Shown here: positions 14,017 to 25,216 of the stretch, piece after piece
Layout: each line of letters opens with the position of its first letter
Numbering within the stretch: the stretch's first letter is position 1
Assembly (NCBI RefSeq): GCF_005239135.1
Contig: NZ_QKNX01000002.1
Coordinates: 62,001-126,000, forward strand
DNA length: 64,000 nt
Direction: 5' to 3'
DNA from: Natronomonas salsuginis
GTDB lineage: Archaea > Halobacteriota > Halobacteria > Halobacteriales > Haloarculaceae
Position numbers and translations under genes: made by a program
Notes under the pieces: model-generated
Databases searched by the model: none
What the model was told of the DNA's origin: nothing
Seen by the model: the letters and a program-made list of their open reading frames with translations, nothing else

Positions 14017-14062
14017 AACGTCCTGACGGAGATTTGAACTCCGGTCCCTGGCTCCGCAAGCC
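14017..14062. repeat. attL: displaced 3' half of tRNA-Arg
   Basis: These 46 bases match 25142-25187 exactly. They cover the tRNA from the anticodon stem-loop to the discriminator base on the minus strand, then diverge (GTCTCC instead of AAGAGG). No functional tRNA can be made here because the 5' half is absent. Confidence 0.9.
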
Positions 14063-14357
14063 GTCTCCTAAAGTAGTCTCCTACTTCTAACAACAACTCT
14101 CGACTCCTCCGTATAGCGAACTTCTCCGTCTCCGTGCTGCGATTGTATGTGTTATTGGCTTATAAAGACCCGCCTCGATGGTGTGACCGACAACGTTGGT
14201 TCCATGAGTTTTGCTCCCCTGACCCAAAACCGAATGTATCCCTTGTCGAAGGTCGCGGCCACCTTCTTGGCAGAGACCAACAGCGGTCGTCGGTGTATCG
14301 AGCCAATTGAATCCCCCTGCCGGTATCGCCGCTCATCTTTTCGGGGAAGCACAGGGA
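14063..14357. other. Left end of the element, no convincing gene
   Basis: About 300 bases hold no reading frame I trust; a 66-codon minus-strand frame (14152-14352) has no recognisable family. A TATA-like CTTATAAAG lies at 14158-14166 on the plus strand without a gene in reach, so a short RNA is possible. Confidence 0.4.
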
Positions 14358-14404
14358 TTGCGGAACTTTCGCATATAAGAATACTATATGCCAGACTTCC
14401 GCAA
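14358..14404. repeat. 47-nt imperfect palindrome, copy A
   Basis: Arms TTGCGGAA (14358-14365) and TTCCGCAA (14397-14404) enclose CATATAAGAATACTATATG, itself partly symmetric. A box CCCACGTGCTTC follows at 14417-14428. It lies just after the stop of the GIY-YIG gene. The same arrangement is found at copies B and C. Confidence 0.85.
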
Positions 14405-14444
14405 AGCTACCCCTTGCCCACGTGCTTCTTCCAGAGATGAGCGG

Positions 14445-15335
14445 CTATGGAGGAATGTTCTCTGTGTGCCCAAACTGTGCGAGCGGCGCTTTCCCAACTT
14501 CGAGGTAGTACGCTCCGATGCAGTCAGTCTCGATTTCTTTGCGCTTGTGCGAGGCGTCGAGGTCACTCCGCTCGGCGTAGGCAAACAGGGCATCGCCCCC
14601 GAAGGTTTGTTCGTGGTTGTAGAGCCGTGAAGAGATGTTACTCGATTCTCCAATGTACGCCAACGTCGAATCCTGCCCCTCGTACCAGATGCGATAGACT
14701 CCTGTATCGGGTGGGTCGGCATTGAGTCGTTCTGCAAGTCGATATGGTTCGGACCATTCGAGGTGCATCCAATCTCGGGCCAGTGGTTCACGCCAGTTCT
14801 GCCAGTCAGGTGGCTGGACACCACTCGCAGAATTAGGTTCGTCCTCGCCCGATGCGAGTGGACCGCCCCTGTATGCAGGGTCGCTCTGACTGTAGGAGGA
14901 TTGTTTGTAGCCGTCGATGATGCGACCGAAGTTTGCTGTCGGGCTACAGTTTGCCTCCCGTCGATGGAGGGCGATGAGAGCCGCCTCTATTCCCTTGCGG
15001 TGTTGGTCATCCTCTGCCTTCGGGGGAGTGGTGTACGAGACGTCGAGTGCAGAGCCAACGTTATCTTGAACTGCCCACAGGCACGGAGCCGCAGTATGTG
15101 GGTCGCGGTAGGGCATCTCATCGGCATAGGCTCCTCTGGCAAGGCTCTGGATGCGCCTTCGTGTATCGCCAGACTCACCGATGTATTCGAGATGGTCTCG
15201 GTTCTCAGTCCTGTGACGGACACGGTACAGTCCCGGTTCTTTGGGCACCTCGGAGAACGAGTCTATCTCGAGAGAATTCCACTCGGACCATTCTATCTTA
15301 GATAGGAGCAAGCAGGGTGAATTGAGTTTACTCAT
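14445..15335 (-). CDS. Tandem GIY-YIG nuclease-domain protein
   Basis: A 296-aa protein with two GIY-YIG-like domains. Domain 1 (about residues 30-135) has PGLYRVRH, LEYIGESGDTRRRI, KGIEAALIALH and PTANFG; domain 2 (about 195-292) has TGVYRIWY, LAYIGESSNISSRL, KEIETDCIGAYY and APLAQFG. Each domain keeps the GxYxxx/YIG strands, an arginine and a glutamate at the catalytic spacing; domain 1 also keeps the late asparagine, which is Q in domain 2. The family includes homing, repair and restriction nucleases. Role unknown; located at the left end of the element and preceded by AT-rich DNA. It may be a dimer-like single-chain nuclease. Confidence 0.72.
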   Translation of the reverse strand: MSKLNSPCLLLSKIEWSEWNSLEIDSFSEVPKEPGLYRVRHRTENRDHLEYIGESGDTRRRIQSLARGAYADEMPYRDPHTAAPCLWAVQDNVGSALDVSYTTPPKAEDDQHRKGIEAALIALHRREANCSPTANFGRIIDGYKQSSYSQSDPAYRGGPLASGEDEPNSASGVQPPDWQNWREPLARDWMHLEWSEPYRLAERLNADPPDTGVYRIWYEGQDSTLAYIGESSNISSRLYNHEQTFGGDALFAYAERSDLDASHKRKEIETDCIGAYYLEVGKAPLAQFGHTENIPP

Positions 15336-16335: not shown

Positions 16336-17301
16336 ATGTCATCAGAGGATACGATTTACTGTATAAATTGTGGGACAGAGATGTCGGAAGGAACAAAATT
16401 TTGTCCAGAGTGCGGTTCAACCCAAGACCAAAGTGAAATAGAAGAAACCAATGAGAGTGTTTCGGAAAGTTCAGGATTCACATCTTGGGCGCCAGGATTC
16501 AAGCCAGGTAGCACGGGTCGAAATATCTTGGTCGGAATTGCTTATTTTGTCTTTTTCTATGTTGGAATATTTGTGTTAGTATACGGGTATCTGAAGGAAA
16601 ATCCAGAATCAGGCAGCACGTTTGCTTGGGTGCTGGGTATACTCCTGATTTTAGCAGGATTTGGTGGTTTGACTGACGGAACAGCTCAGGGAATTATTGG
16701 AGGAATCATTGCCGTTTTAGTTGGGATAATTGTACTTCCGATAGTAAGAAATAAGATTGGGATTGGAAGCCCACCACCTGGCATCAAAAAAGGAAACACG
16801 GCGCGGAGAAATGCTCTGATTAGCGTTGGATACGGACTTGGCGCGATGGTAGTTGGTGGTGCAGCGTTACCCGAGTCCGAATCTTCCAGCTCACCAACTA
16901 CCGAAAATGGTGGGGGAAGTAGCAGTGATGGGGGAAGTAGCAGTGATGGGGGAAGTAGCAGTGATGGGGGAAGTAGCAGTGATGGGGGAAGTAGTGACCC
17001 TTATCCAAATGCGTATTATTATGATGAAGGAACTGGAATTGTGTTGGAGGATGATGTTAGTGCTGAAGCAGACAGTATTGGTTCATTGTACATACGAGGA
17101 ACAGCACGCAATGAAAGTGGACAAAGCTATAGTTATGTGCAAATAACGTATTCGGTGCTTGACAGCTCTGGCGCAAAGATTGCAGATGCGCTGGATAACA
17201 CCAGCGGATTGGATGAAGGACAAAGCTGGCGGTATGAGGCGTTAGCAGCATCTGCAGATAACGCCGATTCATACCAGATACAAGATATTACCGCATACTA
17301 A
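16336..17301 (+). CDS. Zinc ribbon membrane protein with FxLYD-like domain
   Basis: A 321-aa protein with an N-terminal zinc ribbon (YCINCGTEM, FCPECGST), about four hydrophobic segments between residues 60 and 185, a low-complexity linker of GGSSSD repeats and a C-terminal FxLYD-like beta domain (about 240-315: SLYIRGTARNESGQSYSYV, DSSGAKI, LDEGQSWRYEA). The C-terminal part is probably outside the cell and the ribbon inside. AT-rich codons, with ATA, AGA and TTT frequent, differ sharply from flanking genes and suggest recent acquisition. Upstream ATTTATATT (about 16305-16313) fits a leaderless promoter. Confidence 0.72.
   Translation: MSSEDTIYCINCGTEMSEGTKFCPECGSTQDQSEIEETNESVSESSGFTSWAPGFKPGSTGRNILVGIAYFVFFYVGIFVLVYGYLKENPESGSTFAWVLGILLILAGFGGLTDGTAQGIIGGIIAVLVGIIVLPIVRNKIGIGSPPPGIKKGNTARRNALISVGYGLGAMVVGGAALPESESSSSPTTENGGGSSSDGGSSSDGGSSSDGGSSSDGGSSDPYPNAYYYDEGTGIVLEDDVSAEADSIGSLYIRGTARNESGQSYSYVQITYSVLDSSGAKIADALDNTSGLDEGQSWRYEALAASADNADSYQIQDITAY
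16912..16983 (+). repeat. Four perfect 18-nt tandem repeats in coding sequence
   Basis: The unit GGGGGAAGTAGCAGTGAT occurs four times without change, plus a partial fifth, coding GGSSSD six-residue repeats. Perfect identity suggests recent slippage expansion. It serves as a flexible linker between membrane part and C-terminal domain. Confidence 0.9.
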
Positions 17302-17778: not shown

Positions 17779-17994
17779 TTAGCCCTCGATGAAGGTCGTG
17801 AACTCGTTTCCGCACTCGCTACATCTGTGAGTGAAGATTAGCGAATCGGAGTACCCCCGTCGCTTGCTCGTCGTGATTGCCTCGATGGAGCAGAGACACG
17901 GCACCCCTGCATCGAGACGGAATCCCGGTAGTTGTCGCAGTCGGTCGATTTGCTGTTCGCCAAGTTCTTGTGCGCCGTTGTTCGTAGTTTGCAT
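17779..17994 (-). CDS. Small putative zinc-binding protein
   Basis: A 71-aa protein with cysteines in VPCLCS and HRCSECGNEF, suitable for one zinc site. No named family is recognised. It directly precedes the SWIM gene on the same strand with a two-base gap, so the two are probably translated together. Upstream lies a long inverted pair GTGAGAAGG/CCTTCTCAC (18012-18020, 18084-18092) in the space shared with the divergent winged-helix gene. Confidence 0.6.
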   Translation of the reverse strand: MQTTNNGAQELGEQQIDRLRQLPGFRLDAGVPCLCSIEAITTSKRRGYSDSLIFTHRCSECGNEFTTFIEG

Positions 17995-18142
17995 TGGCCT
18001 CTTGCCTCACAGTGAGAAGGCCACCGTCCGCCTGTTCCAGCAGGCGGGCATTTTCCGAACGATATGCCCCGAAAGGACGGCTTCCTTCTCACCTTTTCCT
18101 ATGTAGGCTAAGGTGATAAGCCTTTGCCTTTGGAGGAAAGGG

Positions 18143-18150
18143 TTATATTT
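18143..18150 (+). promoter_or_regulatory. TATA box of the small winged-helix gene
   Basis: TTATATTT ends 21 bases before ATG 18172, which fits a leaderless transcript and supports that start. Confidence 0.55.
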
Positions 18151-18171
18151 CTGCCTGTGAGATATGCCAAT

Positions 18172-18402
18172 ATGACGAATCCAGAGCGAGACTCTGAATC
18201 GGGAAAACTAACCGAACGGTATTCCGACGAGGATTTTCTTGAAGCCGTCACGGAGCTTGAACCAGCGAGTACACGGGAAATTGCTGAAGCGGTAGGATGC
18301 TCTCGACGTAACGCGGATGTCCGATTGAGAAAACTCGAAGAGGCTAACGAAATACGAAAGAAGAAGGTCGGAAATTCGCTGACGTGGTTTTCAGTAGAGT
18401 GA
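18172..18402 (+). CDS. Small winged-helix DNA-binding protein
   Basis: A 76-aa protein consisting of one winged helix-turn-helix: DFLEAVTELEPASTREIAEAVGCSRRNADVRLRKLEEANEIRKKKVGN followed by a wing strand LTWFSVE. This length and arrangement are typical of plasmid and viral regulators in haloarchaea. It is divergent from the SWIM operon, and the inverted pair between them (18012-18092) could be its operator. I chose ATG 18172 from the TATA spacing. The regulated gene is unknown. Confidence 0.75.
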   Translation: MTNPERDSESGKLTERYSDEDFLEAVTELEPASTREIAEAVGCSRRNADVRLRKLEEANEIRKKKVGNSLTWFSVE

Positions 18403-19591: not shown

Positions 19592-19616
19592 GAGACGAGC
19601 TGTAGTCATCGAACTA

Positions 19617-19712
19617 AGAGCCACTTCGGGTAAGGGAACAGGACACGCCTACAAAAACAAACGTAGGGTAGTTTCGTACCATCCCAATTCCTGTTCCCCT
19701 CGCAGTGGCTCT
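19617..19712. repeat. Large bipartite inverted repeat
   Basis: AGAGCCACT (19617-19625) pairs with AGTGGCTCT (19704-19712), and GGGAACAGGA (19634-19643) pairs with TCCTGTTCCC (19689-19698). Inside, CCTAC and GTAGG form a further hairpin around AAAAACAAAC. Nineteen exact base pairs in nested order make chance unlikely. Could be an RNA terminator/attenuator, an origin structure or a regulatory RNA. Confidence 0.8.
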
Positions 19713-19765
19713 CTACCCGTGACAGGTATGATGAGCCGCTAATCTATTGAGGAAGCACGTGGGGG

Positions 19766-19812
19766 TTGCGGAACTCTCCCATATAGAAAGACAATACGCC
19801 AAAGTCCCGCAA
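19766..19812. repeat. 47-nt imperfect palindrome, copy B (inverted)
   Basis: Arms TTGCGGAA (19766-19773) and TCCCGCAA (19805-19812), one mismatch. The companion box is on the left here (GAAGCACGTGGG at 19752-19763), so this copy lies in the opposite orientation to A and C. Confidence 0.8.
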
Positions 19813-19859
19813 AAAATATTAGCGGCAAAAAACACTTTCTCCAGTAAGCTTACAAAAAG

Positions 19860-19867
19860 TTTAAATA
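19860..19867 (+). promoter_or_regulatory. TATA box within the structured region
   Basis: TTTAAATA stands about 35 bases before two consecutive hairpins and 173 bases before the next gene. A transcript from here would begin near 19890 and contain both hairpins as a 5' leader, or end within them as a small RNA. Confidence 0.5.
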
Positions 19868-19902
19868 GGAGGAAGCCATACAAACTAATACGAAGAACTT
19901 GA

Positions 19903-19960
19903 ACACCGATTGGTAAACTCGGTGTGAGCTCGAATCGGACGACTCTATTTTGCCGATTCG
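19903..19960 (+). repeat. Two consecutive perfect hairpins
   Basis: ACACCGA/TCGGTGT (19903-19909, 19919-19925; 9-base loop) and CGAATCGG/CCGATTCG (19931-19938, 19953-19960; 14-base loop) are separated by five bases. They follow a TATA box by 35 bases, so they probably fold in RNA. Confidence 0.75.
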
Positions 19961-20039
19961 GGTACTGTGGTGGTTCACATCCAGCGTTGGTTCAGTCGGC
20001 GGTATGCGGTTACAAATCAGTCAACAAAGAGATACAACT

Positions 20040-20222
20040 ATGACACGAAATAACACAATCGTTCTCTCGGATGAGGAACGCGAACTGGTCGAACAGGTAA
20101 AACGAGCACGCTATGGCGACGAGAGTCTGCCTCACGGTTTCGTTATCGGAAATGCGCTCCGTCGAGACCTGCTCACCGCTCGGAAGACAGGGACGGCTAC
20201 GGAGGTGTCCGTCGATGGGTGA
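20040..20222 (+). CDS. Small haloarchaeal plasmid-type protein
   Basis: A 60-aa protein, MTRNNTIVLSDEERELVEQV..., resembling the short helix-rich proteins encoded widely on haloarchaeal plasmids and viruses; function is not known to me. Its pattern (SDEERELVEQVKRARYGDESLPHGFVI) suggests a ribbon-helix-helix or antitoxin-like fold, but this is only an impression. Its end overlaps the start of the zinc-ribbon gene by eight bases, so the two form an operon led by the structured region. Confidence 0.65.
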   Translation: MTRNNTIVLSDEERELVEQVKRARYGDESLPHGFVIGNALRRDLLTARKTGTATEVSVDG

Positions 20223-20592
20223 GATTACTGTCGAGGTTGATGGTATCGAACACACGTATGCCATAGAGGAGTGGCTGGTCTGCGACAGCTGTAGCCACGG
20301 GTGGCTGAAACTCCTCAATGAGAACTCCGAAGCGTGTCCCGAATGTGGTGCAAAAGAGGTCAGCCTCACGGCAGAGCAAATCACAGACCGGCCGAAGTGG
20401 CTCTGGGATAGAGCCAATAGCATCGAGGAGATGGCGGCTCGAACCGAGCACAAAGCGAAGCTCCTACGAAAGTTAGCGCAGAGGGGATGGGCTCTTAACG
20501 AGCCACCAAGGGATGGGTATGCGCGTCTGACGAAATCCACAGAACAAGACGAAAACTCCGACGAGATAGAGGTGACTCTCTCCGAACAATAA
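20215..20592 (+). CDS. Zinc-ribbon protein, unknown function
   Basis: A 125-aa protein starting MGEITVEVDGIEHTYAIEEW. The zinc ribbon is CDSC near residue 23 and CPEC near residue 41, separated by 14 residues. The C-terminal half is helical and charged (IEEMAARTEHKAKLLRKLAQRG). Overlap with the upstream 60-aa gene suggests coupled translation. The primase gene starts 172 bases later. It may be a nucleic-acid-binding accessory of replication, inferred from context only. Confidence 0.65.
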   Translation: MGEITVEVDGIEHTYAIEEWLVCDSCSHGWLKLLNENSEACPECGAKEVSLTAEQITDRPKWLWDRANSIEEMAARTEHKAKLLRKLAQRGWALNEPPRDGYARLTKSTEQDENSDEIEVTLSEQ

Positions 20593-23853: not shown

Positions 23854-23900
23854 TTGCGGAAGTTTCCCATATAAGAATACAATATGCCAGAGTTCCGCAA
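23854..23900. repeat. 47-nt imperfect palindrome, copy C
   Basis: Arms TTGCGGAA (23854-23861) and TTCCGCAA (23893-23900), exact. The centre CATATAAGAATACAATATG differs from copy A by one base; CCCACGTGCTTC follows. It lies between the 3' ends of the primase and the integrase. Confidence 0.85.
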
Positions 23901-23943: not shown

Positions 23944-25086
23944 TTACCCCATCCGGTTTAGAGCATCTCGCCGGTCGTCTGGCGGGGCGTGGTCATAGCG
24001 GAGTGTTGTTTTCGAAGAGCGATGTCGGAGTTGGGCCTGAGCCGCCGCCAACCCCTCTTCTCGCGTCATAAACGTCCCGACACTGTGGCGAATCGAGTAC
24101 CAGCTTATGTCTCGATTCTCCGTGTCAATCCCCGCCTGTTCGCACACTCGTCGGAGGACGTGATTCAGTGCGTGACTTCCGTAGGGGTTCGCCTGTCGAG
24201 TGAGCCAGAGAGTGTCCGTGTTTTCATACATCTCGTACTGTTCCCTCTCATCCAACCATCGAGACAACGCTTCCGCTGTCCTATCTGTTAGGCTCACTGT
24301 CCAGTTGTCGACGTTTTTCGAACTCTCCTCTTTCGGGATGCGGAGAACTCGGTTTTGCGCGTCAACCCACTCGGTGGTGGCACGTTCGACCTCGATAGGG
24401 CGAAGACCTGTATCGAGTGCGGTCCAGAGGAGAGAAGGGAATTTCCACGAGTTCGCACGGTCGAAGTCGTTGGGGCCAATTTCGGTCTTCGGTTTCACGA
24501 ACCGTTGCGCGAGATATTCCTTCCATTCGTCTCGCTCCTCTGGTGAAAGCGAGTTGTACGAAGGAACCGACCCGTACTTCAAGACCGCTTCTCGAATCTG
24601 CTGACGCTCCTCAACAGAAAGGTAGTCGCGGGGGTTCGTCGTACTGGTGTCGTTCGAGAAGGTGAGTTCTGGCTCCCACTCATCTTCACCGAACTCCCAC
24701 CCGCGCCACCAAAACAGGGTCTTCAGTGCCTTCATCATATTCGCCTTCGTGTCCTGTGAGGCGTCACTGTATGCCAGTTCACGCATATACGTGTCTGCGT
24801 GCTCGTGCGAGACGCGCGTGGTGTACCCATCCTCTTGCTCCCACACCCATCGGTAGAACTTATCGACCCTCGCACAACGGATGTCTGCTGTCGCTTCGGC
24901 ATAGCCTTCACCGCGCTCTGGGTCTTTTCCGAGGTTGAGTACCCACTTGATGAACTTCTCCCGATGCGCGCGATAGTCCGAAATCTGCCGTTCTGCAAGC
25001 TCTTCTGCCGTTGGCTCAGTTATGATTGTAATCCCGTGACTGCGTGGGGATGATTCACCCGAACCTGTTTTCTTGGCTTTCGTCAT
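23944..25086 (-). CDS. Tyrosine recombinase / integrase
   Basis: A 380-aa phage-type integrase that most likely moved this element into tRNA-Arg. The N-terminal half has a SAM-like core-binding domain (KFIKWVLNLGKDP, TTRVSHEHADTYMREL). Catalytic residues are the arginine in DTGLRPIEVERA, RH in WYSIRHSVGT, the histidine in QLRHRS and the tyrosine in LRYDHAPP. Box II reads Y-x-x-R instead of H-x-x-R, which is common in haloarchaeal integrases. The gene is intact, lies 58 bases from the tRNA and is not split by integration, unlike SSV-type integrases. Confidence 0.93.
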   Translation of the reverse strand: MTKAKKTGSGESSPRSHGITIITEPTAEELAERQISDYRAHREKFIKWVLNLGKDPERGEGYAEATADIRCARVDKFYRWVWEQEDGYTTRVSHEHADTYMRELAYSDASQDTKANMMKALKTLFWWRGWEFGEDEWEPELTFSNDTSTTNPRDYLSVEERQQIREAVLKYGSVPSYNSLSPEERDEWKEYLAQRFVKPKTEIGPNDFDRANSWKFPSLLWTALDTGLRPIEVERATTEWVDAQNRVLRIPKEESSKNVDNWTVSLTDRTAEALSRWLDEREQYEMYENTDTLWLTRQANPYGSHALNHVLRRVCEQAGIDTENRDISWYSIRHSVGTFMTREEGLAAAQAQLRHRSSKTTLRYDHAPPDDRRDALNRMG

Positions 25087-25141: not shown

Positions 25142-25187
25142 AACGTCCTGACGGAGATTTGAACTCCGGTCCCTGGCTCCGCAAGCC
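25142..25187. repeat. attR within the tRNA-Arg gene
   Basis: Exact copy of 14017-14062. It covers the 3' half of the functional tRNA-Arg gene including the anticodon loop, plus two bases beyond the discriminator. Confidence 0.9.
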
Positions 25188-25216
25188 AAGAGGATAGTCC
25201 ACTACCCTACCAGGAC
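25144..25216 (-). tRNA. tRNA-Arg (anticodon GCG)
   Basis: The 73-nt minus-strand sequence folds into a full cloverleaf: acceptor GUCCUGG/UCAGGAC (with one G-U), D arm GGGU..AUCC, anticodon arm UUGGC-UUGCGGA-GCCAG with anticodon GCG, T arm CGGAG-UUCAAAU-CUCCG and discriminator G. CCA is not encoded. It decodes CGC and CGU. Its 3' half was regenerated by the integrated element. Confidence 0.93.

Follow-up and report, generated by a model that had tools for sequence, protein, structure and literature searches.

A covarying palindrome linked to a Toprim primase–helicase gene, the probable initiation site of an integrated haloarchaeal element

In the Sulfolobus plasmid pRN1, replication requires a stem-loop downstream of the gene for a primase–helicase–winged-helix protein, and within the pRN1 family the pairing of this stem-loop is conserved while its sequence is variable (PMC4234260). 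In the haloarchaeal virus SNJ2, the replication protein carries a MarR-like winged helix and depends on a DNA hairpin that follows its gene; mutations that break the stem abolish replication and a structure-preserving one does not, and mutation of the winged helix also abolishes replication (PMC13107129). The present study concerns an 11.2-kb element integrated in tRNA-Arg in a 2.9-Mb haloarchaeal genome, analyzed within a 64-kb stretch of DNA (the window). Specifically, comparison with related elements suggests that the primase–helicase probably starts to copy the element at a short palindrome next to the 3′ end of its own gene. The analysis set out from a 450-base region inside the element, upstream of the replicase operon, in which a sequence-only reading had seen a hairpin-dense candidate origin, copy-control RNA or other structured RNA. 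This region consists of several parts and is not one unit.

The features of the element are collected in Table 1. The operon encodes, in order, a 60-aa protein, a zinc-ribbon-like protein and the replicase. The 60-aa protein has no Pfam match, the label CopG-like describes a pattern only, and its AlphaFold model (pLDDT 54) is unusable. The helicase part of the replicase was modeled with a pLDDT of 87 and matched XPD/DinG helicases (Foldseek E 2.5e-11). The element also encodes a 92-aa wHTH regulator (18124–18402), and an in-frame tandem repeat of ~15–21 bp (GGGGGAAGTAGCAGTGAT) at 16908–16997 of the window encodes the Ser/Gly/Asp-rich linker of a 321-aa zinc-ribbon membrane protein. One close relative was found, L039 (in genome G026), which has the same tRNA ends and a replicase 84% identical to that of the window element. 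Of 392 genomes sampled from the order, 83 have relatives of the replicase (E≤1e-40). Two more lie in the same genome as the element (G000:C11:3107-6547 and G000:C2:23083-24858), which suggests that this genome has hosted several such elements. As a DNA query, the 450-base region had no match among phages and plasmids, and neither the replicase nor the 60-aa protein gave a confirmed case when used to scan genome contigs.

Table 1. Features of the integrated element, in window coordinates
Feature	Position	Strand	Description
attL, left element end	14017–14062		46-bp copy of the tRNA-Arg(GCG) 3′ part, 100% identical to 25142–25187
Palindrome unit A	14329–14446	−	47-bp core 14358–14404; R2 E 1.1e-4
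Nested stem-loop	19617–19712		9+4+10 bp stem, 45-nt loop; element-specific
Palindrome unit B	19735–19827	+	47-bp core 19766–19812; asymmetric arm 19736–19765; outer GCCGCTAAT/ATTAGCGGC
TATA-box-like TTTAAATA	19860–19867	+	~25 nt before 19890
Predicted noncoding 5′ leader	19888–20039	+	two hairpins, 19903–19925 and 19931–19960; two sequences only
60-aa protein, first operon gene	20040–20222	+	strand-helix-helix pattern like RHH/CopG
125-aa zinc-ribbon-like protein	20215–20592	+	weak Pfam matches only
Replicase, 1024 aa	20765–23839	+	DnaG_N + Toprim primase, XPD/DinG-like SF2 helicase, C-terminal winged helix
Palindrome C core	23854–23900	−	candidate primary origin or initiator-binding site; R2 E 7.1e-4
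Tyrosine integrase of the element	23944–25086	−	adjoins tRNA; 94% identical in L039
tRNA-Arg(GCG)	25144–25216	−	paired with the 46-bp perfect copy at attL

In more than 25 related elements, the 3′ end of the replicase gene coincides with, contains or is closely followed by a palindrome of one design, 47–53 bp long; the carriers include free circular plasmids, megaplasmids and chromosomes. It is built from outer arms of ~12–14 bp, an inner pair CACGTA/TACGTG or CATAT/ATATG, and an asymmetric center of 7–13 nt. The window element has three copies, A, B and C, with C starting 15 bp past the replicase stop codon. An asymmetric arm of the form CCCACGTGCTTC-N6-AGATGAGCGGC flanks one side of each copy, and the core of unit A is flanked by the inverted arms GAAGCAC/GTGCTTC and GCCGCTCATCT/AGATGAGCGGC. 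L039 has three copies at the corresponding places and in the same orientations; in both elements B has the opposite orientation to A and C, and C with its arm is 89% conserved in L039. Several members carry it within the ORF, in frame and ~50 codons from the stop, so that it is translated into a stretch resembling LARSSIYTWEF. This position excludes a plain terminator, a reading that was rejected because no terminator-like site was found and many relatives carry the palindrome inside ORFs. In one relative it lies well inside the replicase ORF, ~2.4 kb before the stop (L105, 3834–3883), and a palindrome of the window type with a partial arm, cut by the contig end, occurs in a genome of another family (L086, 1501–1556; G410:C37). 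A second, unrelated multi-copy palindrome, TTAACCAACA...TGTTGGTTAA, of ~40–50 nt, was noticed on haloarchaeal plasmids with this replicase, often near gene ends (L077 at 3103, 4510, 6172 and 22498; L078 at 1667), with more sites in L080 (1483) and L082 (6831 and 13329).

The dyad of the replicase-linked palindrome covaries. In ungapped arm alignments of 16 sequences, 84.7% of cells are paired, compared with 25–47% when the arms are slid, double changes occur in 11 of the 20 pairs, and none of 500 shuffles was as good. With 29 palindromes there are 75 double-changed cells, where shuffling predicts 31, and the covariation is 0.349 compared with 0.134 (0/500 shuffles). The pairing signal collapses once the partner arm is slid by a single base. 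Columns 2–12 of the outer arms, in 36 copies, hold 333 Watson–Crick, 9 G·T and 54 other combinations, against expected counts of 246, 23 and 127. This depletion of G·T pairs indicates a constraint on DNA symmetry and not on an RNA stem, and the palindrome does not show the evolution through G·U intermediates that is expected of structured RNA. Covariation of this kind would be seen with a cruciform and with a dimer-binding operator alike.

A covariance model, R2, was trained on 16 relatives, none of them from the window or L039. In the 64 kb, at E up to 10, it matched A, C and B alone, B being the most degenerate of the three copies (E 0.32). The lower value for B under the earlier model R1 (E 7.5e-4), in which the dyad was shifted by two columns, is not evidence of pairing, and the L039 counterpart of B has no R2 match at E≤1. 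The model found the site in all four held-out IMG/VR viral contigs (E 4e-15 to 5e-6), ~54–81 bp after the helicase match. Among 142 whole genomes it matched 12 places at E≤0.01, nine of which are training members; the other three are a site beside a replicase remnant in G012, copy A of the window element and an orphan in G116. The orphan (L134, 2450–2499; G116:C29) lies near an integrase-like gene and a wHTH gene; the first 20 kb of that contig contain no replicase, and the site is a remnant or possibly a satellite element. At 19 of 28 more distant replicase loci R2 had no match at E≤1, which suggests either that the palindrome belongs to a single replicase clade or that the site has diverged beyond the model.

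With moderate confidence, we favor a model in which the palindrome is the cis-acting recognition site of the replicase that the element encodes, present at B as a second-site copy; C would be the main origin-like site and B an auxiliary or autoregulatory one. By analogy with described replicons, C is most likely the origin core or an initiator-binding site. Lying 48 bp before the TATA box and being the most degenerate copy, B more probably serves the initiator as an auxiliary or autoregulatory site than as the origin itself; as the weakest copy, with an L039 counterpart that the model missed, it may not be an origin. GC skew points to none of the three copies. According to this model, the element would first be excised from tRNA-Arg and then circularized, and the primase–helicase would recognize the palindrome through its C-terminal winged helix, binding as a dimer and chiefly at C, the copy just behind its gene. 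Melting or extrusion of the dyad would follow, the XPD/DinG-like helicase would load, and the Toprim primase would make the first primers. At B, before the operon TATA box, the initiator may feed back on its own promoter, or B may serve as an auxiliary initiator site, and the leader hairpins (19903–19960) would belong to the promoter-leader control region. A reading of unit B as a MITE was also considered and rejected: flanking arms are present, but no target-site duplication was seen by eye and the genome holds no further copy.

Rather unlikely, in our judgment, is that the palindrome is an operator only, at which a dimeric wHTH protein (the replicase tail or the 92-aa regulator), bound to A, B and C, controls transcription while the origin lies elsewhere. 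Consistent with this reading are the strong TATA box 48 bp downstream of B, the three copies per element and the symmetric half-sites, which fit a dimer. However, only the copy at the replicase 3′ end is universal, and it often falls within the ORF, where no promoter is expected; the small plasmids that have a single copy (the 10.8-kb NZ_CP100453 and the 8.9-kb NZ_CP095486) carry it there. An improbable alternative is that the palindrome serves a tyrosine recombinase as a dif/res-like site, for site-specific recombination or multimer resolution, in which case the inverted copies would permit inversion. Four plasmids with this replicase do encode a small recombinase of 204–214 aa, and palindromic arms around an asymmetric center, with B inverted relative to the other copies, would suit such a site. 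Against this, the small recombinase is absent from the examined stretches of L040–L044, L048, L049 and L051, several of which have the palindrome, the window element and L039 have the tRNA integrase only, and the total of 47–53 bp exceeds the usual core sites. A cognate small recombinase is thus found with some carriers of the palindrome and not with all of them, and a host recombinase is possible.

The favored model, replicase recognition at the palindrome, leaves the promoter and leader between B and the operon as a control region. The TATA box, TTTAAATA, sits within a block, CAAAAAGTTTAAATAGG, that is identical in L039, and promoter and leader together (19860–20039) are 80–84% conserved in that one relative. 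Between the two sequences the leader differs by single-base, frameshifting indels, which indicates that it is noncoding. Its hairpins are perfect, with stems of 7 bp (19903–19909/19919–19925) and 8 bp (19931–19938/19953–19960); in the two sequences compared, the second is invariant and the first has one compensatory change, C-G to T-A. A copy-control or structured RNA, as proposed by the sequence-only reading, is possible for this leader only, with two sequences and one compensatory change to go by; the depletion of G·T pairs speaks against it for the palindrome. A wider proposal makes the leader, as a copy-control or cis-regulatory RNA, the main functional unit and the palindrome incidental; this, too, we regard as improbable. 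Haloarchaeal mRNAs are often leaderless, which counts in its favor, as does the conservation of a noncoding stretch with its hairpins. It is weakened by its reliance on two sequences, in each of which the leader alone folds no better than shuffles (z −0.8 in the window element and −0.95 in L039), by the lack of an Rfam match, and by the absence of the leader from the 392 sampled genomes of the order and of the leader pattern from IMG/VR.

Comparison with L039 also divides the 450-base region itself: 19592–19735, including the nested hairpin, cannot be aligned, and 19766–20040 is 80% identical, about as much as coding regions are. The structures named in the sequence-only reading are mostly where it placed them: a nested inverted repeat over 96 bases, an inverted copy of the element's 47-nt palindrome, a TATA box and two perfect hairpins of 7 and 8 bp (Table 1). 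It was also borne out that no known RNA family accounts for the region, in which Rfam gave no match at the gathering score and none at E up to 5. The nested hairpin, with a 1×1 internal loop and a 3-nt bulge in its stem and small hairpins within its loop, folds strongly (MFE −42.4 kcal/mol with RNA parameters; z −6.7 for the exactly cut piece), and the whole 448 nt, read as RNA, folds better than shuffles (z −4.7). At the corresponding place L039 has a different, longer sequence with no comparable hairpin, and the sampled genomes gave no match, so that conservation of stems in related elements, which the reading had proposed as a check, holds for the palindrome, with its compensatory changes, and fails for the nested hairpin. 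The latter is a real, element-specific structure with no demonstrated role. That this 96-nt stem-loop is itself an origin of the pRN1 kind is very improbable: its strong fold, 23-bp stem and 45-nt loop resemble the ~100 nt, 21-nt stem and 58-nt loop of pRN1 (PMC4234260), but it has no counterpart in the otherwise collinear L039 or match in sampled genomes and lies far from the replicase 3′ end. Hairpins other than the palindrome are thus unconserved, or part of an ordinary promoter and leader. The proposal of an origin pointed in the right direction as regards the palindrome component, with the main site elsewhere, at C.

The view that nothing else in the window matches the region in hairpin density did not survive. 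A 150-nt fold scan of 13–27 kb gave z −6.1 at 18001 and −5.9 at 14301, both stronger than the −3.7 at 19601, and several 448-nt tiles elsewhere in the 64 kb have 6–9 perfect 7-bp hairpins, compared with 3 in the region, a number reached by 2.4% of its shuffles. The strongest structure in the scanned 13–27 kb (z −6.1) is at 17996–18100, as RNA on the minus strand, before an ATG at 17994. This stretch, which has no Rfam match, is 92–94% conserved in L039. Of 243 haloarchaeal genomes sampled from the order, 47 gave BLAST matches to it at E≤0.01, many of them short. Small zinc-finger genes follow directly after several of the ten loci that were aligned, and the consensus fold of these ten sequences shows compensatory changes at 9 pairs. 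We regard it as a candidate new leader RNA.

The element was compared with described archaeal replicons. In the pRN1 family (orf56/orf904), a small repressor gene is followed by one for a primase–helicase–winged-helix protein and, immediately downstream, by a stem-loop (PMC4234260), and the layout of the element is similar. The primase, SF2-like helicase and wHTH are all present, the 60-aa first gene product has an RHH-like pattern only, and the palindrome, downstream of the replicase gene, keeps its pairing and not its sequence. In contrast to the archaeo-eukaryotic primase and SF3 domain of pRN1, the replicase combines a Toprim/DnaG primase with an XPD/DinG-like SF2 helicase, and archaeo-eukaryotic prim-pol and SF3 domains are absent from it. 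Moreover, the palindrome spans 47–53 bp and not ~100, is often inside the ORF and, in the window element, has three copies, one of them before the operon. A sliding-fold search for pRN1-sized stem-loops was swamped by generic long-range folds. Because the replicase belongs to other primase and helicase families, the element is an analogue of the pRN1-type replicon and not a member. It is also similar to SNJ2 and its betapleolipovirus Rep-Arvir, another case of a haloarchaeal integrated element with a wHTH-bearing replication protein, in which an inverted repeat adjoins the essential hairpin after the rep gene (PMC13107129). However, SNJ2 relies on a rolling-circle endonuclease, whereas the present replicase is unrelated in sequence, has no recognized endonuclease domain and matched none of the endonuclease families searched, among which the Rep-Arvir profile was not included.

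In replicons of the P1 RepA and pSC101 RepA type, relatives of the initiator site occur both at the origin and, inverted, near the rep promoter. An inverted palindrome near the replicase promoter plus one at the candidate origin would be reminiscent of this layout, with different protein families. A broader proposal, which we put forward tentatively, is that the element represents a new class of archaeal replicon, in which a Toprim primase/XPD-like helicase/wHTH protein initiates at a covarying palindrome, at times within the coding frame of the replicase, and extra inverted copies such as A and B act on the replicase promoter, setting copy number or silencing the integrated state. If the assignment of the palindrome to initiation is true, then a short, specific origin candidate would be available for many haloarchaeal plasmids and integrated elements, which so far form a large anonymous group, and the palindrome would be a marker for such replicons, their remnants and possible satellites. 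It would also extend the design of a replication protein with a downstream DNA hairpin, as found in pRN1 and SNJ2, to an unrelated replicase.
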